From contig NZ_CP014275.1 of the NCBI RefSeq assembly GCF_001578105.1, forward strand, positions 3,786,501 through 3,850,500: a stretch of 64,000 nucleotides of DNA, given 5' to 3'. This stretch comes from Martelella sp. AD-3. GTDB lineage: Bacteria > Pseudomonadota > Alphaproteobacteria > Rhizobiales > Rhizobiaceae. Numbering within the stretch: the stretch's first letter is position 1; each line of letters starts with the position of its first letter. The position numbers and the translations under genes were made by a program. Positions 36,843 to 58,201 of the stretch are shown here, piece by piece. The notes beneath the pieces are model-generated. The model was not told the DNA's origin, did not search any database, and saw only the letters and a list, made by a program, of their open reading frames with translations.

Positions 36843-37751
36843 TCAGGCAAAGAGCATCCGGCGCGGATCGGCAAGAAGCCGGGCATAATGGCAGAGGAAC
36901 CGCGCGGCATCCGCGCCGTTGATCACCCGGTGATCATAGGAAAGGTCGAGCGGCGCCATCAGCACAGGCTGCCAGGCCTCGTTCTCCCAGACCGGAACGG
37001 TTTCCGCTCGCGTGATACCGAGAATGGCCACTTCCGGCGGGTTGACCAACGGCGTGAACGCCGTGCCGCCGATGCCGCCGAGATTGGAAACGGACATCGA
37101 CGCCCCGCCCATTTCGTCAGGCCGAAGCTTGCGGTCGCCGGCCCTCTTCGCCAGGTCGGCAATCTCGGCGGAGATCTGCCACAGGCCCTTGCGGTCCGCA
37201 TCGCGGATCACCGGCACCATCAGCCCGTGCGGCGTGTCGACGGCGACGCCGATGTGGCAATAGTCTTTCCGGATCAACACCTTGCCGTCTGCCGACAGCG
37301 ATGAATTGAACAGCGGAAAGGCTTTGAGGGTGAGCGCCAGCGCCTTGATGTGAAAGGCAAGCGCGGTGAGCCTCAGCCCTTTGGCCGAAGCTTCCGCCTT
37401 GAGGCTCGTGCGAAAGGCTTCGAGCGCGCGCATGTCGGCGCGATCGTGATGGGTGACCTGCGGGATCATCCGGTTGGCGGCCGAAAGATTGTCGGCGGCA
37501 AGGTTTGCGATCCGCGTCATCGGTTCTTCGCTGACGGGTCCGTAAGCCGCATGGTCGATATCCCAGTACCGTCGGTCATCTGCGCTGGCGGTTCCCCCGA
37601 CAACCGGTGCGGAGCCGTCCAGATGCTGGTCGACATCCTCGCGCGCCAGATTGGTGCGACCCGATTTTCGCGCAACATCGGAAAGGTCGATGCCCTTGCG
37701 TCCGGCATAGGCCACCACGGCCGGGCTTGCGATGAAATCCTTGTCGCTCAT
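36843..37751 (-). CDS. 2-oxoacid dehydrogenase E2 catalytic protein lacking lipoyl domains
   Basis: This 302-residue protein begins with a peripheral-subunit-binding domain (ASPAVVAYAGRKGIDLSDV, about residues 7-40). A complete acyltransferase catalytic domain follows (about 75-302; IGVAVDTPHGLMVPVIRDAD, SVSNLGGIGGTAFTPLVNPPE, SYDHRVINGADAARF). The catalytic His is present; the usual Asp of DHRxxDG is Asn. There is no lipoyl domain, although normal E2 proteins carry one to three at the N terminus. The start is at 37751 (MSDKDF), since longer readings enter the next gene. It probably takes acyl groups from the lipoyl arms of the product of 39200-40564, with the aldehyde dehydrogenase gene in between. 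Confidence 0.88.
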   Translation of the reverse strand: MSDKDFIASPAVVAYAGRKGIDLSDVARKSGRTNLAREDVDQHLDGSAPVVGGTASADDRRYWDIDHAAYGPVSEEPMTRIANLAADNLSAANRMIPQVTHHDRADMRALEAFRTSLKAEASAKGLRLTALAFHIKALALTLKAFPLFNSSLSADGKVLIRKDYCHIGVAVDTPHGLMVPVIRDADRKGLWQISAEIADLAKRAGDRKLRPDEMGGASMSVSNLGGIGGTAFTPLVNPPEVAILGITRAETVPVWENEAWQPVLMAPLDLSYDHRVINGADAARFLCHYARLLADPRRMLFA

Positions 37752-37752
37752 G

Positions 37753-39183
37753 TCACCATTCCGCCGAAATATACTGGGTTTCCATGAATTCGAGCATGCC
37801 TTCATGACCGCCCTCGCGCCCGAGCCCGGACTGCTTGACCCCGCCGAAGGGGGCCGCCGGATCGGAGACGAGGCCCCGGTTGAGACCGACCATGCCGTAT
37901 TCCAGCCGTTCGCAGACGCCCATGGCGCGCTTCATGTCCTCGGAGAAGACATAAGCGACCAGCCCGTATTCGGTGTCATTGGCGCGCCGGATCACGTCTT
38001 CCTCGTCGCTGAAGGTCTGCAGCGCCGCGACGGGACCGAAAATTTCGTCATGGACGCAGTCAGCGGTTTCGGGGACGTTCGACAGCACGGTCGGGGGATA
38101 GAAAAAACCTTTGCCGTTCGGCCGCGTGCCGCCAAGCTCGAGTTTCGCGCCCTTCGCGACGGCATCCTCGACGAAGCCCGCGACCTTGTCGCGGGTCGAT
38201 GCGTTGACCAGCGGCCCGACATCGATGCCATCCTCCAGGCCGTTGCCGAGTTTCAGCGCGGCCATGGCGGCGGTGAATTTTTCCGTGAACTCCGCGCTGA
38301 CCTTTTCATGAATGTAAAACCGGTTCGCCGCCGTGCAGGCCTCGCCGAGATTGCGCATCTTCGCCAGCATGGCGCCTGCGACCGCCTTGTCGAGATCGGC
38401 ATCCTCGAACACGATCAGCGGCGCATTGCCGCCAAGCTCCATGGCCGGCTTGACCACCTGATCGGCGGCCGATTTGAGCAAGCTGCGCCCGACGCCGGTG
38501 GAGCCGGTAAAGGAGACGACGCGCACGCGCGGATCATGCAGCATATGATCGACAATCCGGCCGGAATGTTTCGACGGCAGGACGTTGACGAGCCCCTTCG
38601 GCACGCCCGCTTCCTCCAGAAGCGGCATCAGCGCCAGCATGGTCAGCGGCGTTTCCGTCGCCGGCTTGATGATCACCGCGCAACCGGCGGCCAGCGCCGG
38701 CGCGATCTTGCGCGTGCCCATGGCCGCCGGATAGTTCCACGGCGTGACCAGAACCGAAATGCCGGCCGGCTTGTGCTGCACGACGATGCGCGCGCCGGAT
38801 GACGGCGCATGGGTGATAAGCCCGTCGGCCCTGACGGCTTCTTCGGCAAACCAGCGGAAGAACTCGGCCGCATAGGTCGCCTCGCCCATGGCATCTGCCC
38901 GCGCCTTGCCGTTTTCCAGCGTAATATAACGGGCAAAGTCCTCCAGCCGAGCGGTCATGAGTTCCCACGCCTTGCGGAGAATTTCGGATCGTTCGCGCGG
39001 CGTTTTCGCCTGCCATACGGCCATCGCCTTTTCGGCGGCATCAAGCGCCGCATCGGCATCCGGGGTATCGGCGGAGGCCACAGAAGCGAGAACCTCTTCG
39101 GTCGCCGGGTTGATGACGTAAAAGCGCTCGCCGCTTGCGGCCTCACGCCAGCTTCCGTCGATATAGAGATTGGTAAAGTCCAT
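37753..39183 (-). CDS. gabD: NAD(P)-dependent succinate-semialdehyde dehydrogenase
   Basis: This is a 476-residue aldehyde dehydrogenase with PWNYPAAMGTRKIAPALAAGC, FTGSTGVGRSL, the general base Glu in MELGGNAP, the catalytic Cys in NLGEACTAANRF (about residue 280), and SGLGREGGHEGMLEFMETQYI at the end, typical of the GabD group. It oxidises succinic semialdehyde or a similar omega-semialdehyde. The start is at 39183; a longer reading is a shadow. It lies 1 bp from the E2 catalytic gene and 16 bp from the lipoyl E2-like gene, inside the complex operon. Confidence 0.9.
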   Translation of the reverse strand: MDFTNLYIDGSWREAASGERFYVINPATEEVLASVASADTPDADAALDAAEKAMAVWQAKTPRERSEILRKAWELMTARLEDFARYITLENGKARADAMGEATYAAEFFRWFAEEAVRADGLITHAPSSGARIVVQHKPAGISVLVTPWNYPAAMGTRKIAPALAAGCAVIIKPATETPLTMLALMPLLEEAGVPKGLVNVLPSKHSGRIVDHMLHDPRVRVVSFTGSTGVGRSLLKSAADQVVKPAMELGGNAPLIVFEDADLDKAVAGAMLAKMRNLGEACTAANRFYIHEKVSAEFTEKFTAAMAALKLGNGLEDGIDVGPLVNASTRDKVAGFVEDAVAKGAKLELGGTRPNGKGFFYPPTVLSNVPETADCVHDEIFGPVAALQTFSDEEDVIRRANDTEYGLVAYVFSEDMKRAMGVCERLEYGMVGLNRGLVSDPAAPFGGVKQSGLGREGGHEGMLEFMETQYISAEW

Positions 39184-39199
39184 GATCTGGCTCCGAATT

Positions 39200-40564
39200 T
39201 CAAAGAAGATGGCGCAGCGGCTCTTCGAGGCGACCGGCAAAACCTGTGACAAAGGCAAGTGCCGCTGCCTCGCCCAACTGGTTGTCGTGATAGTCGAACC
39301 CGATGATGAAAGCGTCCCGGTCGCGACCAATCGTCAGGACGGGCGCCGCCACAGCCCGCGCCGTCGCGCGGATCACGGGCGAGCCCGTCAGGTCGCGCAG
39401 GATGATATCCGCTTCGCCCTCTTCGGCCTCCTCTTCCAGCGCACCAAGGCGGGTGCGGTCGGCATCGGCAAAGCGGGCAGGACTGGCTCCCGGTTCCTCA
39501 ATGCCAATGACGATCGTATTTTCGTCCGTTAAAGCACCCCGCAGCGCCGCTGCGGCAAAGCCAAGCCAGATACTGGAAGGTGACGGGGCATCATGGGTTT
39601 CTGCCTGCAGCCAATCGAGCAAAGACGAAAAGCCGGAAGCGGGAACCTGGGCCTCGATATGCAGCGGCACGCTTGCCGGAGTGGCCGCCGGTGAAGCATC
39701 CGCTCGCGCACCCAATGCGCGCAAGGTTTCAAGGTCGGATACATGATAGGGCTGGGCAATGCCCTCTTCGGCAAGCCGCGTCAGATCAAGACCTTCTTCA
39801 TGCGCTACCCACCGCGCCTTTGGCGAGGCCAGAATAGGCCCCTCAACGGGCGCGGCGGGCCGCGGCGGCGCCTTGGGTTTTGACGGTGCCTTGCGACTGT
39901 CGGGGGCTGTTTTTTCCGCCTCAGTAACAACAGATGGCTGCGGGGCGGATGAAGGTTTTGCCGCTTTAGCGCTGCGCCGCACGGGGTTTTCAGGCTTTTC
40001 GGCCGAAATCACGGCAATCACCGAGCCGACGGGTACGGCCTCATCGGCATCGGCCAGAATGGCGGCGACATAGCCGTCATGTCCGGCCTCGACCTCCATC
40101 ACCGATTTGTCGGTTTCCACCTCGAGCAAGATGTCGCCGGCCGAAACCTTGTCGCCCGGTTCCTTGCACCAGCTGACGATCAGCCCGGTATCCTGGGCCA
40201 TACCCAGTGCTGGCATGATGATCTCCGCGCCTTCCGGCAGGGACTCCTCATCGGCTTCACTGGCGCTTGGAGCACTCTCGCCGCCCGCGTCTTTTTCAGC
40301 GGGCTTTGCGCTTTCAACATCGTCCTTGCTCTCGACGATCACGGCCACGACGGAACCGACCGGCACATCGTCACCGTCACCCGCCGAAACGGCGCTCAGA
40401 AAGCCATCGGCAGCCGCCTCGACCTCCATCACCGCCTTGTCGGTTTCGACCTCCATGATCGCCTCGCCGGAAGAAACGGGCTCGCCGCTCGTCTTCAGCC
40501 ACCGCACGATCTTGCCGGTGTCCTGCGCCATGCCGAGCGCGGGCATTATCACATCATGCGGCAT
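39200..40564 (-). CDS. double-lipoyl E2-like protein with degraded catalytic domain
   Basis: This 454-residue protein has two N-terminal lipoyl domains, residues about 3-78 (lipoyl Lys43 in ETDKAV) and about 112-187 (Lys153 in ETDKSV). Each starts with IMPALGMAQDTG. An Ala/Pro/Lys-rich linker follows, then a peripheral-subunit-binding domain at about 240-280 (LASPKARWVAHEEGLDLTRL), and a C-terminal part of only about 150 residues that resembles an acyltransferase domain. The DHRxxxG motif is reduced to YHDNQLG, and most of the core is missing. It may be inactive as an acyltransferase, like E3-binding protein, and serve as lipoyl donor. The start at 40564 overlaps the E1-beta gene by 11 bp. 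Confidence 0.85.
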   Translation of the reverse strand: MPHDVIMPALGMAQDTGKIVRWLKTSGEPVSSGEAIMEVETDKAVMEVEAAADGFLSAVSAGDGDDVPVGSVVAVIVESKDDVESAKPAEKDAGGESAPSASEADEESLPEGAEIIMPALGMAQDTGLIVSWCKEPGDKVSAGDILLEVETDKSVMEVEAGHDGYVAAILADADEAVPVGSVIAVISAEKPENPVRRSAKAAKPSSAPQPSVVTEAEKTAPDSRKAPSKPKAPPRPAAPVEGPILASPKARWVAHEEGLDLTRLAEEGIAQPYHVSDLETLRALGARADASPAATPASVPLHIEAQVPASGFSSLLDWLQAETHDAPSPSSIWLGFAAAALRGALTDENTIVIGIEEPGASPARFADADRTRLGALEEEAEEGEADIILRDLTGSPVIRATARAVAAPVLTIGRDRDAFIIGFDYHDNQLGEAAALAFVTGFAGRLEEPLRHLL

Positions 40565-41549
40565 GGAAAAGCTCCCCGCGCACCGAAAGGCGCGCCTTTT
40601 CAGCCACCCGTTCAGGCGTCGGCACAGTGATATCCTCCAGCGCCGGCGAGAACGGCACCGGCACATCCATCGCCCCCATGCGCAAGACCGGCGCATCGAG
40701 GTGATAGAAGGCCTTTTCCGCGATGCGACTGGCAATCTCGCCGGTAATGCCGAAGCTCTGATGGCCCTCATCGATCACCATGGCGCGCGATGTCTTTTTG
40801 ACCGATTTGAGGATGGTTTCCTCGTCCAGCGGCACGATGGTGCGCGGATCGATGACTTCCGCCGAAATCCCGTCCTTTGCCAGGAGTTCGGCTGCTGCCA
40901 GCGCCACCTGCACCATGGAGGACGTCGCGACAAGCGTGATATCCTCACCCTCGCGCAGGATCGCGGCCTCGCCAAAGGGGATCAGATATTCCTCCTCCGG
41001 CACCTCGGCCTTGTCGTTATACATCAGCTTGTCTTCGAAGATGACGACCGGATTATTGTCGCGGATCGCCGTCTTCATCAGTCCCTTGGCCTCATAGGCC
41101 GAAGACGGGAGCGCGACCTTCAGGCCGGGAATATGCGCGACAAGCGCATGCAACGACTGGGAATGCTGGGCGGCAGAACGCCGCGTCGCCCCCAGATTGG
41201 TGCGCACCACCAGCGGCACGTTGAGCTTGCCGCCGGACATGTAGTGGATCTTGGCCGCCTGGTTGCAGAGCTGGTCCATGATCAGGAACAGGAAGTCGCC
41301 GAACATCAGATCGACGATGGGGCGCGCGCCGGTCATCGCCGCGCCGACGGCAAGGCCCATGAAGCCCGGCTCGGCAATCGGCGTATCGATGACGCGCTCG
41401 GTCCCGAATTCCTCCACCAGGCCGGACAACACCTTGAACGGCGTTCCGGCCTCGGCGACGTCCTCGCCGATGATGAAGGTCGTGGGGTCACGGCGCAGTT
41501 CTTCGGCCAACGCCTCGTTCACGGCCTGGGATAGCGTGATCTTTCGCAT
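40554..41549 (-). CDS. 2-oxoacid (acetoin/pyruvate-type) dehydrogenase E1 beta subunit
   Basis: This is a 331-residue transketolase-like subunit: LSQAVNEALAEELRRDPTTFIIGEDVAEAGTPFKVL, TPIAEPGFMGLAVGAAMTG, FLIMDQLCNQAAKIHYMSGG, and the C-terminal transketolase domain (VIDPRTIVPLDEETI, DEGHQSFGITGEIASRI). The best general match by eye is the AcoB/PdhB group. It forms an alpha2-beta2 thiamine-diphosphate enzyme with the next-upstream gene product and would decarboxylate a 2-oxo acid or split acetoin. Confidence 0.9.
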   Translation of the reverse strand: MRKITLSQAVNEALAEELRRDPTTFIIGEDVAEAGTPFKVLSGLVEEFGTERVIDTPIAEPGFMGLAVGAAMTGARPIVDLMFGDFLFLIMDQLCNQAAKIHYMSGGKLNVPLVVRTNLGATRRSAAQHSQSLHALVAHIPGLKVALPSSAYEAKGLMKTAIRDNNPVVIFEDKLMYNDKAEVPEEEYLIPFGEAAILREGEDITLVATSSMVQVALAAAELLAKDGISAEVIDPRTIVPLDEETILKSVKKTSRAMVIDEGHQSFGITGEIASRIAEKAFYHLDAPVLRMGAMDVPVPFSPALEDITVPTPERVAEKARLSVRGELFHAA

Positions 41550-41561
41550 GGAATGTCCTCC

Positions 41562-42545
41562 TCAGTCCGCAAAAACGTGCATGTCGACTTCATGCTTGTC
41601 CGGATATTTTGCCTTCAGCGCATAGTCGACGGCGGCGGCCGCATCGTCGCGAATCTCGGCTTTGAGGGCCTCAAGCTCGTCCTTCGAGGCAATCCCTTCG
41701 CCGGTCAGCCATTTGGAAAACTTCTCGATCGGGTCGCGGTTTTCCTTCCATTCCTTCTCCTCGGCCTTGGATCGGTAGTATTCGCGGTTGATGTCGCCGA
41801 CATGGTGGCCGTGATAGCGATAGGTCCGGAGTTCGATGAAGAACGGCCCCTTGCCCCGGCGGCAGCGCTGCACCAGGTCGCGCGTCAGTTCATTGACCGC
41901 CAGCACATCCTGCCCGTCGACCTCGAAAGCCTCGATGCCGAAGGCCCGCGCCCGGTCGGTGATCGAACCGGCGGCGATCTCGGCCGTCGCCGTATATTCG
42001 GAATAGCCGTTGTTCTCGCAGGCATAGATCACCGGCAGGTTCCAAAGCGCTGCCATGTTCATGACCTCGTAGAGGAGCCCCTGCGCGGTTGCCCCGTCGC
42101 CGAAGAAGCAGACGGTCACATCGTCGGACTTCTGCATTTTCGCGCGCAGCGCGGAGCCGGTGGCAATGCCCATCGAGCCGCCGACGATGGCGTTGGCGCC
42201 GAGATTGCCGTGGCTCTGGTCGGCGATATGCATCGACCCGCCCTTGCCCCGGCAATAGCCCTCCTCCTTGCCGAGGAGTTCGCAGAACATCGCCTGAAAA
42301 TCCGCCCCCTTGGCCACGCAATGGCCGTGGCCGCGATGGGTTGAGGTGATCCGGTCGCTGTCGGTCAGCGCCTCGCAGATGCCGACCGCGACCGCCTCCT
42401 CGCCGGAATACATATGCGTCAGACCCGGCATCTTGGCCGAGAGGTAGAGCTGGTTGGCATTATCCTCGAAGGTGCGGATGCGAACCATCTGCCGGTACAT
42501 GCGCAGATAGTCCTCGCGATTATGCTTGTTGTCTGAAGCGCTCAT
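41562..42545 (-). CDS. 2-oxoacid (acetoin/pyruvate-type) dehydrogenase E1 alpha subunit
   Basis: This is a 327-residue thiamine-diphosphate-binding subunit with the ThDP motif GDGATAQG ... ENNGY (about residues 159-189), STHRGHGHCVAKG, GKGGSMHIADQSHGNLGANAIVGG, and the phosphorylation-loop region RTYRYHGHHVGD. It belongs to the AcoA/PdhA type. The start is at 42545 (MSASDNK), preceded by GAGGCGGGAAA; a longer reading overlaps the M24 gene and is rejected. The complete complex also needs E3 (lipoamide dehydrogenase), which is not in this window. Confidence 0.9.
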   Translation of the reverse strand: MSASDNKHNREDYLRMYRQMVRIRTFEDNANQLYLSAKMPGLTHMYSGEEAVAVGICEALTDSDRITSTHRGHGHCVAKGADFQAMFCELLGKEEGYCRGKGGSMHIADQSHGNLGANAIVGGSMGIATGSALRAKMQKSDDVTVCFFGDGATAQGLLYEVMNMAALWNLPVIYACENNGYSEYTATAEIAAGSITDRARAFGIEAFEVDGQDVLAVNELTRDLVQRCRRGKGPFFIELRTYRYHGHHVGDINREYYRSKAEEKEWKENRDPIEKFSKWLTGEGIASKDELEALKAEIRDDAAAAVDYALKAKYPDKHEVDMHVFAD

Positions 42546-42558
42546 GACGTTTCCCGCC

Positions 42559-43857
42559 TCAATACCGGTTGGCAATCGGCAGTTCCTCTGCCGGAAACAG
42601 CGAGATGACCTCGCACCCCTTGTCGGTGACGACGACCTCCTCCTCGATGCGGGCAGCGGAAAAGCCATCGGCGGCAGGGCAATAGGTTTCCAGCGCGAAC
42701 ACCATGCCGGTCTGGATTTCCATCGGATTATCGAGCGACACCGCTCGCGAGATGATCGGGCGTTCGTGCAGCGCAAGACCAAGGCCGTGGCCGAACTGCA
42801 GACCGAAGGCGGAGAGTTCGTCCGGAAAACCGAATTCCTCCGCCTTCGGCCATGCCTTGGCCACGACATCGGTGGTCACGCCCGGCTTGATCAGCGCGAT
42901 CGAGGCATCGATCCATTCGCGCGCCTTCACATAGGCGTCGACCTGGGCGGGCGTCGAGCGGCCGATATTGAAGGTGCGGTAGTAGCAGGTGCGATAACCC
43001 TGATAGCTCTGCAGGATATCGAAGAAGGCCTGGTCGCCGGGCCGGAAAAGCCTGTCGGTGAAATTGTGCGGATGAGGATTGCAGCGCTCGCCGGAAATGG
43101 CGTTGATCGCCTCGACATCGTCGGAACCCATTTCATAGAGCATCTTGTTGGACAGAGCGACGATCTCGTTCTCGCGCACGCCCGGTTTCAGCTCCTCGTA
43201 AATCATGTGGTAGACGCCATCGACCATGCTGGCGGCCTGCGTCAGAAGCTGGATCTCGTCCCAGTTCTTGATCTCGCGAGCCGAAAGCATGATCTGCTGG
43301 CCGTCGACGACATTGATGCCAGCCGCCTTCAGCGCCTCGAACATGGCGGTTTCGGCATAATCGACGCCAACCGGCATATCGGCCATGCCGGCATCGCGGA
43401 TGAGACCTGCAATCTCCTCGGCATATTTTTTCATCAGCCCGAAAGAGGGCGGAATGGTGCCGCGCATGCCGACGACGCCGGCCCGGCAATGATCGGGGAT
43501 CAGCCAGTCGGAGAATTTGCGGTGGTGCACGGCAGCCGAACCGAAATCCCAGACGTAAGGCGCGTCATCACCCGTCAGCAGGCAGAAACGGCACATCTTG
43601 TCGCGTTCCCACTCGCCGATCTTGGTGGCGGAGACATAGCGGATATTGTTGACGTCGAAGAGCAGCAGCGAGCCTGCATCGCTGTTCTTCAGAGCCTGTC
43701 GGGTGCGTGACAGGCGGTAGCGGCGCAACCGGTCGTGATCGACGCGCCGTTCGAAGTCGACGGACGTATGGCCCCAGGCCGGCAGCCGTCCTTCCCAGTT
43801 CCACTGGGGCAATAGATCCTGCGGGGTGAGCACGTTGGGTGTCAGTGCGCGGTTCAT
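42559..43857 (-). CDS. M24 (pita-bread) family protein, creatinase- or DddP-like
   Basis: This is a 432-residue protein with an N-terminal creatinase-like domain (LLLFDVNNIRYVSATKIG) and a C-terminal pita-bread fold. The C-terminal ligands are present: His in FGHGLGLALHERP, Glu in FALETYC, Glu in RIEEEVVVT. But the aspartate pair of metal-dependent M24 peptidases is incomplete: where D...(10)...D is expected the sequence is FFDILQSYQGYRTCYYRTF, so the second Asp is lost. Non-metal creatinases show similar losses, and the N-terminal wording resembles DddP-type DMSP lyases. A C-N or C-S bond hydrolase is likely; peptidase activity is doubtful. It lies 13 bp before the E1 alpha gene. Confidence 0.85.
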   Translation of the reverse strand: MNRALTPNVLTPQDLLPQWNWEGRLPAWGHTSVDFERRVDHDRLRRYRLSRTRQALKNSDAGSLLLFDVNNIRYVSATKIGEWERDKMCRFCLLTGDDAPYVWDFGSAAVHHRKFSDWLIPDHCRAGVVGMRGTIPPSFGLMKKYAEEIAGLIRDAGMADMPVGVDYAETAMFEALKAAGINVVDGQQIMLSAREIKNWDEIQLLTQAASMVDGVYHMIYEELKPGVRENEIVALSNKMLYEMGSDDVEAINAISGERCNPHPHNFTDRLFRPGDQAFFDILQSYQGYRTCYYRTFNIGRSTPAQVDAYVKAREWIDASIALIKPGVTTDVVAKAWPKAEEFGFPDELSAFGLQFGHGLGLALHERPIISRAVSLDNPMEIQTGMVFALETYCPAADGFSAARIEEEVVVTDKGCEVISLFPAEELPIANRY

Positions 43858-43933: not shown

Positions 43934-44740
43934 CTACTGGATCACCCAGCCGCCATCGATATGGATCATCTGGCCGGTCATGTAGTCGCTGTCGTGACTG
44001 GCGAGGAATGCCGCCGTGCCCTTCACGTCGTCGGGATAGGACACTTTCTTCAGCGCCAGATCGTTCTCAGCCAGGTCCTCGAACGCCTGTCCTTCCTTCT
44101 GCTTGAAGCCCATCTCGACCAGATCCTTGTCGAGCTGCGCCCAAAGCGGCGTCTTGACCACGCCCGGTGCATAGCCGTTGACGGTGATGTTGTGCTCGGC
44201 AAGCGTGACCGCGCCGCAATGGGTAAGCGCCAGGCAGCCATATTTCGAGGTGCAGTAGACCGTCACATCGTAAAGCGGTTTGCGCGATGCGACCGAGCCG
44301 ACATTGATCAGCTTGTAGACATGCTCCTGCTTGCCCTGCTTGATCATCTGCCGGGCAACGGCCTGCATGCCGAGCCACATGCCCTTGGTGTTCACATTCA
44401 TGATGAAGTCCCAATTGTCCTCATCGATGTCCATGAAGAATTTCGGCTTGTTGACCCCGGCATTGAACAGGCCGACATTGATCATGCCGAACGCCTCGAC
44501 GGTGGCTTGAACCGCGGCATCATTGTCATCGCGGCTCGTCACATCCATCTTCACCGCGATCGCCCGGCCGTTGCCGGCGGCGTTGATCTTGTCGGCCAGC
44601 GCCTTGCCCAGTTCCAGGTCAAGGTCGCCGATGCAGACATTGGCGCCCTGCTCGGCGAAATGCTCGGCATTGGTCGCGCCCATGCCCTGGGCGCCGCCGG
44701 TGATCAGGATGTTTTTGCCTTTGAGGCGGTTGGGGTCCAT
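43934..44740 (-). CDS. SDR-family oxidoreductase, paralogue of 47873-48670
   Basis: This is a 268-residue short-chain dehydrogenase with ITGGAQGMG, FNAGVNKPKFF, the catalytic YCTSK Tyr/Lys, NGYAPGVVKTPLW, and the DSDYMTGQMIHIDGG end. It shares long stretches with the SDR of the divergent operon, for instance NAGVN.P..F.D, ..NW.FIM.VN and DSDYMTGQ. The type is close to sorbitol and butanediol dehydrogenases. It is the first enzyme gene after the HTH-SBP regulator and probably oxidises a polyol or hydroxy acid. Confidence 0.88.
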   Translation of the reverse strand: MDPNRLKGKNILITGGAQGMGATNAEHFAEQGANVCIGDLDLELGKALADKINAAGNGRAIAVKMDVTSRDDNDAAVQATVEAFGMINVGLFNAGVNKPKFFMDIDEDNWDFIMNVNTKGMWLGMQAVARQMIKQGKQEHVYKLINVGSVASRKPLYDVTVYCTSKYGCLALTHCGAVTLAEHNITVNGYAPGVVKTPLWAQLDKDLVEMGFKQKEGQAFEDLAENDLALKKVSYPDDVKGTAAFLASHDSDYMTGQMIHIDGGWVIQ

Positions 44741-44785: not shown

Positions 44786-46612
44786 CTATGTGACGCGTTT
44801 TCGCATGGCCTCGTCCGCGCGCGCCTGAGCGCGCGAGAGGGCCTGTTTCGGACTGACGATGCCGCGCAGCATGTCGTGCAGCTCATGACCGCAGATCTGG
44901 ATGATGTCGGAAATTTCCGGGATCGGCGGGCGCGGCCAGAACTGCAGCTCGTCGCGCCAGGACATCTGGTCGACGCTCTCGAAGATCGGCGACAGGCGGC
45001 GCACTTCCGGATCGGAACCGACGGAATAGCGCGGCGCGGTGCGGCTGCCATTCTGGATGAAAAGCTTTTGTGCTTCCGGCGAGGTGAAGGCGACGAGCGC
45101 CTCGACCGCTTCGTCCACCCGCTCCTGCGGCAGGTTGGCGGGAACGCCGAAGACATAACCGCCGACCGGCGCGATCGGCGTGCCGCCCGGCCCGTGCGGA
45201 TGCGGCAGATAGCCGGTATTGCCGAAGGCGGGCGATTGCGGATCGAGCTCGAAATAGGGTGCCAGAAGCGTGTAGCCGTAGGCCATTGCGACCTTGCCTT
45301 CGGCGTAAGGCCGGACGCGCTCATACCAGGACATGGACAGGATATCGGGTGGCGAGAATTCCATCAGCGCCAGCAGATATTCCGCCGCTTCGAGCGCCTT
45401 CGGCGTGTCGATGGTCGGGTGAAGATCGTCGCGCTCCAGATGATCGGCATCGAAACCACCGGCGATCTCTTTCAGGTTGATGATCGGCTGGCCGAAATCG
45501 GCGCAGGCCATCATGAATGTGTGGCCGAGCGCCGTGCCGCGCGCCGCGTTCCAGGCAATGCCGTAGACGCCCATGCGCGGGTCATGCAGGCGGGCCGCGG
45601 CCTCCAGCACAGCCTCCGTCGTTTCCGGCGGCTCAAGGGCGGCTTCCGCGAACAGGTCGCGGCGATAGAAGAACAGTTCCGGCGTTGTCTGGCTCGGCAC
45701 GCCATAGGCCACGCCGTCCCAGTGGGCGGCCCGCCACCCGGCGGTGTGAAAATCACCGGGGTCGAGCCTGTCGAGATCCATGATGGAGGACAGCGGGCGC
45801 AGGACGCCTTTCTTCACGAACTCCCCAAGCCAGGGCAGGTCGACGGCGATCAGATCGTAGCGGCTGACGGCGCGTTCGGCATTGCGCAGCGCCTCGCCGC
45901 GCAGGCGGTCGATCGAGAAGGCGCGTTGGTGAATGTTGCAGCCGACCAGATGCTCGAACTGACGCTTCAGATTGCTCATCACCATGAAGGTCGGGTCGCC
46001 ATGGACGAGGATGCGCAGGCCGCCCGAGAGCTTCATCGGCGTCGGCAGCGCCTGCGGCGGACCGATCAGCATCTTGCCCGGCTGGTAGGAGCCGCCGAAA
46101 TAATAGTCCGAGTTTTCCTGGGTAAAGCCGTCGGCGCCGAAACGCACGGCCGCCAGACGGTGGATGCGGCGGGCCAGCTGGCACCAGTTGTCCAGCATCT
46201 CCGGGCTTGGATGCAGGGAAACGCTTTTACCGGTTTTGGAGCGGGGACGTTGCTCCACCGCGCCTGATTCCAGCAGTTCGGTCAGCTTGCGCGTCGCCGT
46301 CGCATAGGGCACTCCGGAGGCCGCGATGATCGATGACGGGATCACCATACGCCCTTCCAGGTGCCGGCGCAGAAGATGCAGGCTCATGTTGAGATAGGGG
46401 TTCGGCGCATTCGGCGTGGTGGCGTCATCGACCTCGACCAGCACATCTTCCATGAACCGCACGACGGCCTCCAGCTCGGCGGAAACGGAAGGTTTTGCCT
46501 CCGCCCCGCCGCCCATGGCAGCGCCATATCCATTTTGAATATTTTGTGCGATATCCTGATTCATCTGTCCCGGCAAACCGTGCTCCGGTCTGCGCCTCGT
46601 TGGCGATGCCAT
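44786..46612 (-). CDS. winged-helix regulator fused to a family-1 solute-binding-protein domain
   Basis: This 608-residue protein has no signal peptide and no TM helix, so it should be cytoplasmic. Residues about 74-135 form a winged HTH (MSLHLLRRHLEGRMVIPSS, helix 2 IIAASG, recognition helix PYATATRKLTELLESGAV, wing RSKTGKSVSLH). Residues about 197-605 are a family-1 extracellular solute-binding domain: LRILVHGDPTFMVM, YDLIAVDLPWLGEFVKKGVL, WDGVAYGVPSQTTPELFFYRRDLF, GKVAMAYGYTLLAPYF, PVGGYVFGVPANLP, AFTSPEAQKLFIQNG. I know SgrR as HTH plus a different (family-5) binding domain; this pairing is its family-1 analogue. A strong GGAGGAGAG precedes the ATG. It sits at a divergent promoter between two catabolic operons and probably senses their substrate. 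Confidence 0.85.
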   Translation of the reverse strand: MASPTRRRPEHGLPGQMNQDIAQNIQNGYGAAMGGGAEAKPSVSAELEAVVRFMEDVLVEVDDATTPNAPNPYLNMSLHLLRRHLEGRMVIPSSIIAASGVPYATATRKLTELLESGAVEQRPRSKTGKSVSLHPSPEMLDNWCQLARRIHRLAAVRFGADGFTQENSDYYFGGSYQPGKMLIGPPQALPTPMKLSGGLRILVHGDPTFMVMSNLKRQFEHLVGCNIHQRAFSIDRLRGEALRNAERAVSRYDLIAVDLPWLGEFVKKGVLRPLSSIMDLDRLDPGDFHTAGWRAAHWDGVAYGVPSQTTPELFFYRRDLFAEAALEPPETTEAVLEAAARLHDPRMGVYGIAWNAARGTALGHTFMMACADFGQPIINLKEIAGGFDADHLERDDLHPTIDTPKALEAAEYLLALMEFSPPDILSMSWYERVRPYAEGKVAMAYGYTLLAPYFELDPQSPAFGNTGYLPHPHGPGGTPIAPVGGYVFGVPANLPQERVDEAVEALVAFTSPEAQKLFIQNGSRTAPRYSVGSDPEVRRLSPIFESVDQMSWRDELQFWPRPPIPEISDIIQICGHELHDMLRGIVSPKQALSRAQARADEAMRKRVT

Positions 46613-46629: not shown

Positions 46630-46699
46630 TGTCCAAAACAGCGATCCCGAAATATCGCTTAAAAATCCAATACGGATAATTAAAAATTCATTTTGGACA
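46630..46699. promoter_or_regulatory. inverted pair of TGTCCAAAA sites in the divergent promoter
   Basis: TGTCCAAAA (46630-46638) and its reverse complement TTTTGGACA (46691-46699) lie 52 bp apart in the AT-rich gap between the HTH-SBP regulator gene and the ribose-type importer. Between them are ATCC-AATAC-GGAT (46665-46677) and several A/T runs. The pair is a candidate operator for the HTH-SBP protein, controlling both directions. The binding is inference. Confidence 0.45.
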
Positions 46700-46821
46700 T
46701 TTTAGGCAGGTCCATTGCAGCCGAATTAGTGGTGTATGAGAGCCATTGCCCGGGAGAGGCCCGACCGGTTGCCGGAGGGCTGAGGCAATACATCCAGTTT
46801 ATCGTTTGGGAGGAACGAACT

Positions 46822-47784
46822 ATGAGATTTTCAGCCAGGCTCACCTTGGCCGCCACGACCGCGATTGCAGGGCTCGCCCTTGCCGGCGCGGCATCCGCCG
46901 AGAGCTACAAGATCGGCATCACCCAGAACAATGTCGGCGTCGACAGCTATCAGACAACCTATGAGCAGGCCTTCATCAACGCAGCCGGCGCCAACCCCGA
47001 CGTCGAGACCGTCGTCCTCGACGCAGGCGGCGACGTCGCCCGCCAGATCGCCCAGGTGGAAGACCTGATCCAGCAGAAGGTCGACGCCATCATCATCTGG
47101 CCGACCAATGGCGAGGCCGTCATTCCGGCCGTGCGCAAGGCCCACAAGGCTGGTATTCCCGTGATCGTCACCAATTCCAACATCGCAGAGCCCGGCTTCG
47201 ATTTCGTCGCCTCCTTCTCCGGTCCGGACAATATCACGCAGGGCGCGCGCTCGGCCGAGATCATGTGCGACAAGTTCAAGGACATGGGCATCGCCGACGA
47301 GGCGAAGATCGTGCAGATCTCGGGACAACCGGGCTACACGACCGCGATCGAGCGTGCCAAGGGCTTTGAGGACCGCCTTCCGGAGGTCTGCCCGAATGTC
47401 GATCTGGTCGAGACCCAGCCGGGCGATTGGAACCGGGAAAAGTCGCAGAAGGTGATGGAAGCCTTCCTCGTAAAATATGACGATATCGACGGGGTTTACG
47501 CCGGCGACGACAATATGGGCGTCGGCGCGCTCAACGCCGCCAAGGCCGCCGGCCGCGACGGCATCATCTTCGTCGGCGCAACCAACTTCTCCGTCGGCTA
47601 CGAAGCCATGCAAAACGGCGATTACTGGGGCTCGATCTACCAGTCGCCGGTCGATGACGCCGAGGCCGCGCTTCAGACCGCAATCGACGTGCTCGACGGC
47701 AAGGACGTGCCGTTCCTCAACTATTTCGACACGCCGAAGATCACCCAGGACAATATGGACCAGTTCACCAAGCCGGTGTTTTGA
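46822..47784 (+). CDS. ribose-type ABC transporter substrate-binding protein
   Basis: This is a 320-residue periplasmic protein with a Sec signal (RLTLAATTAIAGLALAGAASA, written in two parts: 5-16 and 17-25). The mature part is a type-I sugar-binding fold: IGITQNNVGVDSYQTTYEQ, AQVEDLIQQKVDAIIIWPTNGEAV, AGIPVIVTNSNI, DGVYAGDDNMGVGAL. It is RbsB-like in size. The start is at 46822 after GGGAGGAACG; an in-frame extension from 46693 covers the operator region. It is first in the importer operon 46822-53807. The ligand is probably a monosaccharide or polyol. Confidence 0.9.
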   Translation: MRFSARLTLAATTAIAGLALAGAASAESYKIGITQNNVGVDSYQTTYEQAFINAAGANPDVETVVLDAGGDVARQIAQVEDLIQQKVDAIIIWPTNGEAVIPAVRKAHKAGIPVIVTNSNIAEPGFDFVASFSGPDNITQGARSAEIMCDKFKDMGIADEAKIVQISGQPGYTTAIERAKGFEDRLPEVCPNVDLVETQPGDWNREKSQKVMEAFLVKYDDIDGVYAGDDNMGVGALNAAKAAGRDGIIFVGATNFSVGYEAMQNGDYWGSIYQSPVDDAEAALQTAIDVLDGKDVPFLNYFDTPKITQDNMDQFTKPVF

Positions 47785-47872: not shown

Positions 47873-48670
47873 GTGGGTCGTGTCTCTGGACGTTCCTGCA
47901 TCGTGACGGGAGCGGCGCGCGGTATCGGCCGCGCGATCGGCGAAGCGCTTTTGGACGAAGGCGCCGATGTCTGTTTTGCCGACATCAACGCCGAGAAGAT
48001 CGCCGCGGTGGCAGAAGACAATCGCGAGCGGGCGCAGCGAAACGGCGGGCGGGTCACCCATGCCGTGGTCGACGTGACGAAACGCGACCAGGTGCGCGCC
48101 ATGATCGCCCACGCGGTCTCGGTCTTCGGCAAGCTCGACGTCAAGTTCAACAATGCCGGCGTCAACCGGCCGATGAATTTTCTCGACGTGACCGAGGAGA
48201 ACTGGAACTTCATCATGTCCGTCAACGGTCTCGGCTGCCTGATCGGCATGCAGGAGGCGGCACGGCAGATGATCAGCCAGAAGACCGGCGGCAAGATCAT
48301 CAACACGACCTCGATCGCCGGCAGGCAGGGCTTCGACAATGTCGCGCCCTACTGCGCCTCGAAGGCGGGCGTGATATCGCTGATCCAGTCCGGCGCGCGC
48401 GATCTCGCCAAACACAACATCACCGTGACCGGCTTTGCGCCCGGCGTGGTGGCGACGGAAATGTGGGAACAGGTCGACCGCGACCTGATGGAGATCGGCG
48501 CGGCGGAGAAGCCCGGCCAGGCCATGGCCGCGTTCTCGGCCGACATTCTGCGCGGCAAGGTGGCCCGGCCGGACGACATTACCGGCACGACCACCTTCCT
48601 CGCCTCGCCCGACAGCGATTACATGACCGGGCAAGTGGTGATGATCGACGGCGGCATGACGCTCGTTTGA
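47873..48670 (+). CDS. SDR-family oxidoreductase, paralogue of 43934-44740
   Basis: This is a 265-residue short-chain dehydrogenase with VTGAARGIG, FNNAGVNRPMNFLDV, the YCASK catalytic pair, TGFAPGVVATEMW, and DSDYMTGQVVMIDGGMTLV at the end. It starts with GTG after GGGAGAGG. It is inserted between the binding-protein and permease genes of a ribose-type importer, so it should act on the imported compound, probably oxidising a polyol to a ketose. The SDR across the divergent promoter is a close relative. Confidence 0.88.
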   Translation: MGRVSGRSCIVTGAARGIGRAIGEALLDEGADVCFADINAEKIAAVAEDNRERAQRNGGRVTHAVVDVTKRDQVRAMIAHAVSVFGKLDVKFNNAGVNRPMNFLDVTEENWNFIMSVNGLGCLIGMQEAARQMISQKTGGKIINTTSIAGRQGFDNVAPYCASKAGVISLIQSGARDLAKHNITVTGFAPGVVATEMWEQVDRDLMEIGAAEKPGQAMAAFSADILRGKVARPDDITGTTTFLASPDSDYMTGQVVMIDGGMTLV

Positions 48671-48739
48671 AGCGCGCATGCGAAGACAAGGGCGGATAGC
48701 GCCCGCAATGGCCTGAAACCGGAGCTTTGGGAGGAGCTT

Positions 48740-49714
48740 GTGGCGAATTTTACCCGAAAAGATGTGGGCGCTTTGCTGGCCCGTCAGGGAATCCTGATCG
48801 CCTTCGTGGTGTTCATGATCGGCTTTGCTCTGATCAACCAGCGCTTTGTCGCGCCGGACAATATTCTGGGCGTGATCCGCTCCTCGGCCATTCTGGGCGT
48901 CATCGCGCTCGGCGTCACCTTCGTCGTCATCGGCGGCAATCTCGACTTGTCCGTCGGCTCGATGATGTCCTTTTCCACCATCGTCGTCCTCGACCTTCAT
49001 GACAGGCTTGGCCCGGTGCTGGGCATTCCGGCCATGTATGCGATGACGCTGGCGCTCGGCGCCTTCAACGGCTTCCTGATCGGTTACCTCCGGCTCAACT
49101 CGCTGATCGTCACGCTCGGCATGCTGTCGGCAATCTACGGCCTGACGCTGACCTATTCCGGCGGCAAGAACATGGACATCGCCGACAAGGAAGGCACCTG
49201 GTTCTCCGTGTTCGGCCAGGGCGACATCCTTGGCATCCCCTCCCCGATCGTCATTTTCGCGGGTCTGGCCATCGTGCTTGCCCTGCTGCTTGCCAAGACG
49301 CCGTTTGGCCGCAAGGTCTATGCCGTCGGCGGCAATGGTGTCGCGGCAACCTTTTCCGGCATTCCGCGCGCCCGCATCGTGTTCTTCACCTACCTGATCT
49401 CCTCCTTCTGCGTGGCGACCGCCGGCCTTATCCAGGCCAGTCGCTCGCTCGGCAGCCAGAACACGGTCGGCCAGGGCATGGAGCTCGAGGTTCTGGCCGC
49501 CGTCATCCTCGGCGGCGCGTCGCTACTCGGCGGGTCCGGCACCGTGTTCAAGACCGTCATCGGCGTGCTGATCCTCGGCTTTATCCAGAACGGACTTCTG
49601 CTCGCCGGCCTCCAGTTCTACGTCCAGTATGTCGTCACCTGGGTGATCATCATTCTTGCGGTCTGGCTCGACATTGCCGCCAAGCGCGGCCGTCTCTGGT
49701 CGCCGATCGCGTGA
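48740..49714 (+). CDS. ribose-type ABC transporter permease
   Basis: This is a 324-residue RbsC-type inner-membrane permease with about eight to ten TM helices. The conserved segments are VTFVVIGGNLDLSVGSMMSF (about residues 58-77), VTLGMLSAIYGLTLTYSGG, AVGGNGVAATFSGIPRARI, and EVLAAVILGGASLLGGSGTV. It starts with GTG after GGGAGGAGC. It pairs with the permease 10 bp downstream; having two different permeases in one importer is common in this family. Confidence 0.92.
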   Translation: MANFTRKDVGALLARQGILIAFVVFMIGFALINQRFVAPDNILGVIRSSAILGVIALGVTFVVIGGNLDLSVGSMMSFSTIVVLDLHDRLGPVLGIPAMYAMTLALGAFNGFLIGYLRLNSLIVTLGMLSAIYGLTLTYSGGKNMDIADKEGTWFSVFGQGDILGIPSPIVIFAGLAIVLALLLAKTPFGRKVYAVGGNGVAATFSGIPRARIVFFTYLISSFCVATAGLIQASRSLGSQNTVGQGMELEVLAAVILGGASLLGGSGTVFKTVIGVLILGFIQNGLLLAGLQFYVQYVVTWVIIILAVWLDIAAKRGRLWSPIA

Positions 49715-49724
49715 GGAGATGACC

Positions 49725-50722
49725 ATGACCAGACAGAATTACACGAAATACGTCAAGCAGGGCGCGATCTGGGGCTTCATCCTCGTCGAGCTGATCTTCT
49801 TCTCCGTTGCCGGCCATTTCCTGTCGCTGTCGGACACCGCCTTCATGGGCTTCGACAACATGCTGCTGCTTTTGAAGCAGTCGGTCCCGATCGGCATCAT
49901 CGCGATCGGCATGACGGTGATCATGATCAACGGCAATATCGACCTTTCCGTCGGCGCGACCTTCGCGCTGGCCGGGATCGTGATGCTGGATTCCATGACA
50001 TGGCCAATCTTTGCCGGGCTCGGCGACTGGGTGATCCCGGTCTCCTGGGCGCTGGCGCTTCTGACCGGCGCAATCCTCGGCGGGCTCAACGGCCTCATCG
50101 TGTGGAAAACCGGCGTCGACGCCTTCATCGTCACGCTCGGCGCCATGCTCGGCTATCGCGGCCTCGTGTTCATGTATAACGGCGAGAACCCGACCTCGCA
50201 TCTGAACTGGACACTGGTTGATTTCGCAGAAGCGCAGTTCCTCGGCATCCATACGGCAAGCTGGTTCTTCCTCGCCGTCACCGCCATCATCTGGCTGGTG
50301 ATGACGAAAACCGTGCATGGCCGCAATGCCTATGCGATCGGCGACAATCGCGAGGCGGCGATCAATGCCGGCATTCGCGTCGGTCCGCATTTCCTGCGCA
50401 ACTTCATCCTGATCGGCTTTCTCGCGGCCCTCAGCGCCGTGGTGTTTTACTCAGAAAGCGGGTCGGTCAACCCCAATGACGGCGAGCTTTATGAATTGTG
50501 GGCGATCACGGCTGTGGTTCTCGGCGGCACAAAGCTTGCCGGCGGTTCGGGTTCGATCCTCTCCACCTTCGGCGGCGTCATCGCCATCCAGCTTCTGCGC
50601 AAGGGCCTCGGCTATATCGGCGCGGATACCGAAACCGTCAATCTCGTGATCGGCCTCATTCTCATCGCCGTCCTGTTTCTGGACCGTCAGTTGAACCGCA
50701 AAGGCAGAGGGGAGCTCAGGAT

Positions 50723-50726
<4 letters not shown>
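49725..50726 (+). CDS. second ribose-type ABC transporter permease
   Basis: This is a 333-residue RbsC-type permease with MTVIMINGNIDLSVGATFALAG, IVTLGAMLGYRGLVFMYNG, AIGDNREAAINAGIRV, AVVLGGTKLAGGSGS. The N-terminal cytoplasmic stretch is followed by TM1 (GFILVELIFFSVAGHFL). The start is at 49725 (GAGGAGATGACC before it); the in-frame extension from 49656 lies in the previous gene. It overlaps the ATPase start by ATGA. Confidence 0.92.
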
Positions 50727-52233
<1,507 letters not shown>

Positions 52234-52234
<1 letters not shown>

Positions 52235-53103
52235 TGCGGATCGGATTTGCAGGGCTTGGCCGCATGGGCCAGGCCATGGCGCGCAATCTGGTGCGCGCCG
52301 GACATGATGTTATCGTCTGGAACCGCTCCGCCGACAGGGCGACAGGCTTTGCGACGGAGACCGGCGCGCGCGCGGCTGAAACCCCGCGGGAACTGGCGGA
52401 TGATGCCGACATCATCATCGCCATGCTGGCGGATGATGCCGCCTCCGAAACGGTGCATTTTGGCGAGGACGGGCTTTTTGCCGGCAGCCGGGCGCGCTGG
52501 TTCATCGAAATGGGAACGATGAGCCCTGACCATATCGTCCGCCTGGCCGGGACGGCCCCTCCGGGCGCGACGGTGATCGATGCACCCGTCTCCGGCGCGA
52601 CAAAGGCAGCCGAAGAGGCGACCTTGCTGATCATGGCCGGGTGCGATGCGGAAACCGGCGCGCCGCTTCTTCCGGTGTTCGATGCGCTCGGAAAAAGGAC
52701 AATTTTCCTCGGCGAAAGCGGCCGTGGCGCTGTGATGAAGCTCTCGGTCAACGCCCTGATCCACGGCATCAACCAGACGCTCGCCGAAGCCATGACGCTT
52801 GCGGAGGCCGCGGGCATCGCCCCGGAAGCGGCCTTCGAGGTGATCGAGGCCTCCGCAGCGGCGGCTCCGATGCTGACATACCGCCGCCCGCTCTATCTCG
52901 ATGAAGCCGCCCATGACGTGACGTTTACGGTTGCGCTTGCCCGCAAGGACATGGAAGTCACGGCGGCGCTTGCGGACCAATTGGGCACCGCCATGCCGCA
53001 AGGTCTCAAGACGCTCGAGACGCTGAAAGCGGCCGAAAGCGCCGGCTATGGCGCCCGTGACATGGCCTCGATCCTCAATTTCATGCGAAAGGAAAAGACA
53101 TGA
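52234..53103 (+). CDS. 3-hydroxyisobutyrate-dehydrogenase-family oxidoreductase
   Basis: This is a 289-residue beta-hydroxyacid dehydrogenase with an N-terminal Rossmann fold (GFAGLGRMGQAMARNLVRAGH), the DAPVSGATKAAEEATL substrate loop (about residues 116-131) and a C-terminal helical domain with the catalytic Lys in GAVMKLSVNALIHG. It oxidises a 3-hydroxy acid such as tartronate semialdehyde or 3-hydroxyisobutyrate. It shares one base with the ATPase stop and overlaps thuA by ATGA, so it is part of the importer's pathway. Confidence 0.9.
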
Positions 53104-53807
53104 AGGCCGTCCTGTTTGTCGGTGGCTGGGAAGGCCACGCGCCGACCGAATTTTCCGACTGGTACGCCGACCTTTTGAAGGACAACGGCTTCAGCGTCGA
53201 TGTCTACGACACGATGGAGCCACTGGAACGCCCTGCTGATCTTGCCGGCATCGACCTCATCACTCCGATCTGGTCATCGGCCCGCTCCGGCCACCGCGAG
53301 GAATTCGGCACGATGAGCAAGCCGCAGGAAGACGGCCTTCTGAAGCTGGTCGGCGAGGGCTGCGGCATTGCCGGCTGGCACGGTCATATGGGCGACGCCT
53401 TCCGCGATCGTCCGACCTATCACTTCCTCATCGGCGGCCAGTTCGTCGCCCACCCGCCCGGCTGGCCCGACAACCTTCAGCCACGCGAGGACTATATCGA
53501 TTACGACGTCACCATCTGCCGTCCGTCCGACCCGATCGTCGAGGGCATCAGGAGCTTCAGGCTGCGCTCCGAGCAATATTACATGCTGACCGACCCTTCG
53601 AACGAGGTCCTGGCAACCACGACCTTTTCCGGCGACCACCTCTGGTGGATCGAGGGCACGGTCATCCCCGTCGTGTGGAAACGCCGCTGGGACAAGGGCC
53701 GCGTGTTCTACTGCTCGATCGGCCATGAACTCGCCGACCTGCAAGTGCCGCAGGTGAGCGAGATCATCCGTCGCGGGGCGCTTTGGGCGGCGCGCGGCGG
53801 GACCTGA
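53100..53807 (+). CDS. ThuA-like protein
   Basis: This is a 235-residue member of the class-I-glutamine-amidotransferase-like ThuA family. It has MKAVLFVGGWEGHAPTEFS, GEGCGIAGWHGHMGDAFRDRP, YHFLIGGQFVAHPPGWPDN, YYMLTDPSNEVLATTTF, PVVWKRRWDKGRVFYCSIGH. ThuA proteins accompany sugar uptake operons in rhizobia (trehalose utilisation) and probably act on keto-sugars; no reaction is settled. It ends the operon that starts at 46822 and is coupled to the upstream dehydrogenase by ATGA. Confidence 0.9.
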   Translation: MKAVLFVGGWEGHAPTEFSDWYADLLKDNGFSVDVYDTMEPLERPADLAGIDLITPIWSSARSGHREEFGTMSKPQEDGLLKLVGEGCGIAGWHGHMGDAFRDRPTYHFLIGGQFVAHPPGWPDNLQPREDYIDYDVTICRPSDPIVEGIRSFRLRSEQYYMLTDPSNEVLATTTFSGDHLWWIEGTVIPVVWKRRWDKGRVFYCSIGHELADLQVPQVSEIIRRGALWAARGGT

Positions 53808-56688: not shown

Positions 56689-56703
56689 GGTCTCTCCAAT
56701 TTT

Positions 56704-56717
56704 GAGGTTCGTACCTC
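56704..56717. promoter_or_regulatory. inverted repeat near the lacI start
   Basis: GAGGT-TCGT-ACCTC lies 15 bp before the lacI start codon and directly upstream of the divergent -35 box. It could be a second operator or a site of another regulator. Confidence 0.3.
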
Positions 56718-56719
56718 TA

Positions 56720-56749
56720 TTGACAGCAGAACCGGTCCGTGTCTATTGT
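56720..56749 (+). promoter_or_regulatory. promoter of the alpha-xyloside importer operon
   Basis: TTGACA (56720-56725), a perfect -35, and TATTGT (56744-56749) are 18 bp apart. The LacI-type operator begins directly after the -10 and covers the expected transcription start. Confidence 0.65.
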
Positions 56750-56763
56750 CGTAAACGTTTACG
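56750..56763. promoter_or_regulatory. LacI-type operator
   Basis: CGTAAACGTTTACG is a perfect 14-bp palindrome with a central CG, the classic LacI/GalR-type site. It sits just after the -10 box of the importer promoter, so binding would block transcription. Confidence 0.75.
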
Positions 56764-56919
56764 GAGCGTGTTTTAGCGATTTCGGGGCTGTTAAGTCAAT
56801 GACAGTGAAGCGGCGCCTCGCGACGGGGTCCATGCGGCAACTGTTCCCCTGTCGACCTTAAACACAATCCGTCGAGACCGGCCGAGGACGGTCGGAAAAC
56901 CTATACGGGAGGCTATTTT

Positions 56920-58149: not shown

Positions 58150-58168
58150 TCTGCTTTTCCTGAAATCC

Positions 58169-58201
58169 GGGATATCCCGCCACGCCCCAAAAAGGGCGTG
58201 G
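58169..58201 (+). other. intercistronic hairpins after the binding-protein gene
   Basis: CGGGATATCCCG (58169-58180) is a perfect palindrome. It is followed by an 8-bp stem CCACGCCC/GGGCGTGG (58180-58201) with the loop CAAAAA. The same GATATCCCGG wording returns at about 58215, so an alternative longer pairing is possible. There is no terminal T-run, and the next gene starts 63 bp later. Confidence 0.55.

Follow-up and report, generated by a model that had tools for sequence, protein, structure and literature searches.

A predicted transcription regulator joining a MarR-like DNA-binding domain to a family-1 solute-binding domain, and a candidate operator palindrome, at a divergent promoter of Martelella sp. 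AD-3

The subject of this report is a gene lying in a 64,000-nucleotide stretch of the genome of Martelella sp. AD-3 (contig NZ_CP014275.1; the whole stretch is hereafter the window). The gene, here called REG, is an open reading frame (ORF) coding for 608 amino acids, the single full-length match among 12 found in its own genome. REG is the first gene of a dehydrogenase-complex operon, 45 bp ahead of the dehydrogenase gene SDR1, and its start is separated by 209 bp from that of a divergent gene (start at 46822) coding for an RbsB-type periplasmic solute-binding protein (SBP), in agreement with a preliminary description of this DNA that placed it at a divergent promoter between an importer operon and the dehydrogenase operon. 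Wherever names of REG and its relatives are shown, they read transport, solute-binding or sugar-binding protein. On the evidence of its sequence and predicted structure, REG is read here with good confidence as a cytoplasmic one-component transcription regulator made of a MarR-like head and a complete family-1 sensor of the sugar-binding type. The parts of the gene are the following:

44786..46612, minus strand: REG, regulator ORF, 608 amino acids
46118..46492, minus strand: MarR-like DNA-binding domain with flanking helices, residues 41-165
46208-46399, minus strand: winged helix proper, residues 72-135
44798..46024, minus strand: family-1 solute-binding (Venus-flytrap) domain, residues 197-605

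The N-terminal 141 residues of REG match helix-turn-helix (HTH) models below the Pfam cut-offs (HTH_IclR, E 0.011; TrmB, E 0.026; MarR_2, E 0.085; residues 77-125), and REG and those paralogs for which bit scores are shown fall below the MarR cut-off. Across the family, MarR_2 is matched at E<=0.01 by 26 of 33 N-terminal domains (best, 6.4e-6), the window's own protein being unmatched at that limit. The AlphaFold2 model of REG places helices at residues 72-85, 92-98, 103-116 and 137-158 and strands at 119-123 and 131-135, thereby bearing out the winged helix-turn-helix (wHTH) proposed for residues 74-135 or so. Because a fold search with the full model could not test so small a domain, residues 41-165 were folded alone; they gave a mean predicted local distance difference test (pLDDT) score of 88.5 and MarR proteins as top structural matches, so that the N-terminal part is indeed predicted to fold as an HTH domain, with the winged helix and flanking dimerisation helices of the MarR family. 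In the recognition helix, 31 diverse members all share T105 and R108, which would be expected of proteins reading a common core, TCC/GGA.

The C-terminal part, described beforehand as maltose-binding-like from about residue 197 to 605, was confirmed as such by Pfam matches to SBP_bac_1 (PF01547; residues 251-515, E 7.5e-27, 95.6 bits against a cut-off of 26) and SBP_bac_8 (residues 249-536). Its model matches the full two lobes of known SBPs, many of them solved with sugars (the best match, 5iai, we take to be polyol-bound, a point given no weight as evidence), and many residues along the domain are invariant in 68 orthologs. The most hydrophobic 15-residue segment within the first 100 residues of REG scores 1.11, and 169 relatives have on the same scale a median of 1.09 and a maximum of 1.73, the highest of them approaching the two SBPs of the window that served as secreted controls (1.87 and 1.96). 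By this measure, which is hydropathy alone and not SignalP, REG and its 169 relatives have no export signal or lipoprotein leader of the kind found in family-1 transport SBPs; a secreted SBP is ruled out for REG, and the earlier statement that it has no signal peptide stands. A predicted DNA-binding domain, a predicted small-molecule-binding domain and a leader-free N-terminus that points to the cytoplasm would together make REG a one-component regulator.

The promoters of orthologous REG loci contain a palindrome, TATCCA-N3-TGGATA, which is new here. The 80 loci concerned are the best 80 of 260 matched stretches encoding a relative in GTDB species genomes, and they are not independent of each other. 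Allowing at least 8 of 10 positions of ATCCA-N3-TGGAT, 189 occurrences were counted in the 80 regions against 20.2 in Markov shuffles, and three regions had none. A weight matrix made from 106 sites found 250 sites in the 80 promoter regions against 5.8 in shuffles; since it was built from the same regions, the further checks count more. Two sites exactly 21 bp apart (at least 6 bits) are present in 75 of the 80 loci. Over 1.61 Mb of sequence from these loci, 144 of 166 sites of at least 16 bits fall no more than 500 bp upstream of codon 45, and the exact double pattern occurs in 55 of the 80 promoters and in three other places, with no occurrence of a reversed control. A loose half-palindrome pattern was not enriched in the whole genome of the strain (46 against 59 for the reversed control), a comparison that is uninformative. 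The sites and elements recognised in the window are:

46684..46700, no strand assigned: O1, operator-like palindrome, 18.9 bits (weight matrix of the 80 orthologous loci)
46663..46679, no strand assigned: O2, operator-like palindrome, 20.7 bits, 21 bp from O1 (same matrix)
46526..46542, no strand assigned: O3, third palindrome, 23.4 bits, inside REG codons 24-29, 137 bp from O2 (same matrix)
46630..46636, no strand assigned: half-site TTGGACA (as read on the minus strand) near the 5' end of REG, conserved but degenerate (column conservation at +30 to +41 from the O2 centre)
46651..46656, minus strand: putative -10 element of the REG promoter (aligned loci: T at +17, 88%; A at +18, 68%)

The alignment of twin sites took in 78 loci, two (L059 and L080) being without the pair. 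Conservation at +17 and +18 may reflect part of a -10 element, in which case O2 would lie over the -35 region or the spacer; the TTGGACA half-site may likewise have a function. A third site of at least 9 bits occurs in 60 of the 78 loci, at 135-139 bp in 46 and at 83-86 bp in 11. Where it lies more than 110 bp away, its distance to codon 45 leaves the same remainder on division by three in 47 of 48 loci, so that the third site is most likely inside translated sequence. Both distances come near whole numbers of helical turns (13 and 8), a phasing that is suggestive only, as relatedness of the loci and the reading-frame constraint inflate it. A further operator-like match of 16.2 bits lies inside the PermA ORF of the importer operon (49581-49597); 13 sites of at least 16 bits in the 80 loci share its 250-bp distance bin, which may reflect coding conservation or a distal operator.

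An assessment outside the matrix is offered by 33 paralogous loci (30-53% identity), which were kept out of it. Within 6.5 kb, an intergenic site of at least 13 bits was found in 23 of them, against a mean of 0.81 and a maximum of 17 for 200 matrices of permuted palindromes; at 15 bits the count was 20 of 33 against 0.23 and a maximum of 5. The high permuted maxima come perhaps from matrices near the true one. Sites of at least 13 bits inside called ORFs, 19 in number, were set aside, and gene labels are approximate where ORF calls are poor (e.g., L164, GC 0.70). The positions of the sites suit promoters: the palindrome lies between the SBP and permease genes in L126, L168 and L171, at that boundary in L172 and, with poor ORF calls, probably also there in L167 and L174; it lies between the SBP and SDR1 genes in L127, L165, L166 and L169, and between the regulator and SBP genes, as the variant ATTCA-N3-TGAAT, in L128-L130. 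L203 comes from a genome outside the class, and there two sites (9454 and 9475) again show the 21-bp spacing and immediately precede the regulator gene, the spacing in L127 being 20; L204, also with sites 21 bp apart, was dropped as evidence, being an apparent duplicate of L087, which is already in the matrix. The palindromes of loci outside the matrix, including the twin sites of L203, argue for attributing the sites to REG. Ten of the 33 paralogous loci have no site in this count.

The genes on either side of REG, named from Pfam and NCBIfam matches of the window genes and BLAST to them (the second permease, PermB, and the ATPase from sequence and BLAST context, without a Pfam scan), are as follows:

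43934..44740, minus strand: SDR1 dehydrogenase, next gene in the same direction (Pfam; 80 of 80 loci)
42559..43857, minus strand: M24-family protein (nearest NCBIfam model DddP, 117.9 bits against a cut-off of 600)
40554..42545, minus strand: E1 alpha and E1 beta of a pyruvate-dehydrogenase-like complex
36843..40570, minus strand: lipoyl-only protein, aldehyde dehydrogenase and separate E2 catalytic domain
46822..47784, plus strand: RbsB-type periplasmic SBP of the divergent importer operon (Pfam/NCBIfam)
47873..53807, plus strand: SDR2, two CUT2 permeases, ATPase, 3-HIBDH-like dehydrogenase and ThuA-like protein

With window genes as tblastn queries, REG was found divergent to the RbsB-type SBP gene, with SDR1 downstream on its own strand, in all 80 orthologous loci. 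Most loci that reach far enough go on with M24, E1 alpha, E1 beta, lipoyl protein, aldehyde dehydrogenase and E2; the exceptions are L049, with no match beyond SDR1, L075 and L089, with other SDRs after M24, and L030, where the dehydrogenase genes are on the other side. L081 has two REG copies (at 8401 and 14324, about 6 kb apart) with operator-like sites near both and SDR1 after the second. Outside Martelella, REG is about 64-75% identical to the window protein and the SBP, M24 and E1 proteins about 75-94%, while the lipoyl and 3-HIBDH-like proteins diverge as much as REG or more. Regulator and importer are inherited together: the importer SBP is present in 38 of 295 genomes of one family (E<=1e-90), exactly the same 38 have a REG match at E<=1e-49, and comparison of the two lists puts both on one contig in 38 of 38. 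In the other 12 of the 50 REG-matching genomes this SBP is absent, and the matches, to paralogs or fragments, are all weaker. The twin palindrome, the third site within the gene, the palindromes of paralogous loci and this co-occurrence all argue for the proposal, already made in the preliminary description, that REG is a transcription regulator.

REG is one of a family of such proteins. A whole-protein search gave 1742 proteins at E<=0.001 among 8000 candidates scored, which may include ordinary SBPs. With residues 41-200 as query, in a search confined to proteins 0.55 to 1.75 times the query length, 269 proteins of similar length were obtained, and SBP_bac_1 is present in all of the best 120. 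A REG relative (E<=1e-100) is found in 4 of 13 genomes of the genus and 5 of 41 searched overall; strong matches occur in 8 of 385 genomes of the class (at least 95 bits, open frame of at least 564 aa) and 6 of 398 of the phylum (at least 138 bits), one of the latter (G836) lying outside the class, and the family of one strongly matching genome has a relative in 3 of 3 genomes. Among 72,556 plasmid records, 32 carry a REG relative; where these have a name, it is 'extracellular solute-binding protein', except in one case, which reads 'ABC-type sugar transport system, periplasmic component'. The 61-kb plasmid pP92_e of Phaeobacter inhibens (L184) carries the whole importer-regulator-dehydrogenase cluster, which fits the patchy distribution. 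A fusion of two genes by sequencing or assembly error, raised at the outset as a way in which the regulator could prove illusory, is ruled out, as the same two-domain ORF occurs in many genomes. In a tree of 47 SBP domains, a weakly supported branch (82/42) sets the 43 regulator domains apart, and very long branches lead to the four plain SBPs; the tree does not contradict a single capture of the SBP domain, and does not decide it.

In the mechanism proposed, the MarR-like domain (residues 41-165) would bind, presumably as a dimer, the palindrome TATCCA-N3-TGGATA at O1 and O2, which lie in the region separating the divergent importer and catabolic operons with a spacing (21 bp) of two helical turns. 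O3, inside the gene itself, would be bound by REG as well. Without inducer, REG would repress its own operon, and probably the importer too, by covering the -35 region, looping to O3 possibly adding to repression. The cytoplasmic Venus-flytrap domain would bind the imported compound or a catabolite, and closure of its lobes would change the dimer and release the DNA. The reading as a repressor follows from the layout, a site over the -35 region or spacer with an auxiliary site inside the gene being that of an autorepressor; REG is thus probably autorepressing. As to the ligand, paralogs adjoin other CUT2 importers, CUT1 genes (L185 and L190, including an SBP gene of their own) or clusters for maleylacetate reductase and intradiol dioxygenase. 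The importers of L127, L128, L165, L166 and L169 differ from that of the window (SBP 22-25%, ATPase 35-37% identity), whereas identity stays at 57-65% for SDR1 and at 67-91% for M24 in the loci where it was found; this suggests that the signal is a compound of the pathway and not what the importer specifically takes up. More tentatively, these proteins may form an undescribed and widespread family in which a MarR-like dimer is driven by a complete MalE-type flytrap. Paralogs would have become attached to hydroxyquinol-type pathways and to many different importers, of the CUT2 and in some cases the CUT1 type, while retaining a single palindromic code, TCCA-N3-TGGA, for their operators (which the main group would have as a twin, spaced by two turns, plus a loop site within the gene); a shared catabolic intermediate would be the signal.

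The alternative that survives best, doubtful as it is, keeps the same protein and sites and makes REG an activator, ligand-bound REG at O1/O2 recruiting polymerase to both promoters. Sites between two divergent transcription units and a spacing of two turns would suit activators too, and SgrR, which REG resembles, activates sgrS according to passages of PMC4021124 and PMC13060122; SgrR is, however, also described there as repressing its own gene, and O2 over the putative -35 region or spacer together with a third site in the gene would be the arrangement of a repressor. An SBP domain that no longer binds ligand and acts only as a platform for dimerisation or protein docking is improbable: the invariant residues and the full two-lobe match are consistent with a kept pocket, short of proving it. 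Slightly less credit still is given to the view that some other regulator, co-inherited with the cluster, owns the palindromes and that REG has a different role. A LacI gene is present in the window (55630-56688) and L203 has a weak LacI match, yet the palindromes recur beside diverged paralogs with different neighbours. The window LacI itself is an unlikely owner, as it was unmatched in the 80 orthologous loci (flanks to about 10 kb, window genes as queries). That REG serves transport like any other SBP, its N-terminal extension being mere decoration, as every database name shown and the strong SBP fold would have it, is scarcely credible given its N-terminal hydropathy and that of its relatives, the 125-residue MarR-like fold in front and an adjoining importer that is CUT2 with its own RbsB-type SBP.

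Among known systems, REG is perhaps closest in working to SgrR of E. coli, the sensor of which is of family 5. The SgrR homologue DsvR of V. cholerae likewise joins an N-terminal HTH to a C-terminal solute-binding domain in one regulator, as passages of PMC13060122 and PMC4021124 describe it, that domain being SBP_bac5, whereas REG has a family-1 (MalE-type) domain and a MarR-like wHTH. The Pfam scans gave SBP_bac_1 and SBP_bac_8 and no SBP_bac_5 (PF00496) in REG or eight paralogs; SgrR_N (PF12793) was not found in REG at E<=1, in 33 relatives at E<=0.01 or in eight paralogs at E<=0.05. REG would thus be an analogue of SgrR, outside the SgrR type as defined by SgrR_N and SBP_bac_5.

MarR proteins are about 140 aa long, with the ligand site near the dimer interface. 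REG differs from a small protein of the MarR domain alone (compare MepR, MexR and HpaR) by its 608 aa and added 400-residue sensor, and is 6% identical in sequence to MepR. From family-1 ABC SBPs (5iai, 1eu8, 4qrz) it differs in its fusion to a DNA-binding domain, in lacking a hydrophobic leader and in standing beside a CUT2 importer that has its own SBP, rather than beside a CUT1 importer that it serves. In LacI/GalR and LysR regulators an HTH is also joined to a sensor resembling periplasmic binding proteins, of types different from those of REG, in which Pfam gave no LacI or LysR match at E<=1. The best-scoring wHTH relatives inspected outside the family (10 weak matches) were proteins of Alphaproteobacteria with a MarR-like wHTH at the C-terminus, unlike REG, several with a receiver domain recognisable by eye ahead of it. 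HTH-SBP combinations of other kinds (e.g., GntR with SBP_bac_1 in Firmicutes) may be listed in domain databases. As far as the open-licence literature searched reaches, the earlier remark that regulators with a family-1 domain have not been described as a class holds, no published description having been found there, and the terms searched brought up no family-1 case in passages of two surveys of transcription-factor domains (PMC5882156, PMC7017128). Since these genes are named transport or solute-binding proteins, a regulator role and its regulons would be missed. If the reading is right, REG adds a new input domain to one-component regulation, comes with an operator already predicted and offers a system ready for experiment; the fusion would reveal by what coupling a closing flytrap controls a MarR-like head, and many ligands of MalE-type proteins are known already. 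Operator and regulator, both predicted, also offer a way into a catabolic cluster, found repeatedly in marine Alphaproteobacteria, that is as yet uncharacterised.

Some minor observations concern the surroundings of REG and its paralogs. Three of the paralogous loci (L128, L129 and L130) come from small AT-rich genomes (1.4 Mb, GC 0.36-0.37), where ATTCA-N3-TGAAT stands at two or three promoters and the diverged regulator is accompanied by the same SDR/M24/E1 genes and by a different CUT2 importer. In L186, L187 and L190, genes for maleylacetate reductase and intradiol dioxygenase neighbour the paralog, and the divergent promoters have operator-like palindromes close by; in L126 a GMC-type oxidoreductase, read by eye, adjoins the paralog. 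In the window, the lipoyl-only protein of the cluster at 36843-43857 has two lipoyl stretches, the E2 catalytic domain being separate, and the LacI-family gene (55630-56688) is near a secreted family-1 SBP in what is apparently a separate sugar system (55630-58200).
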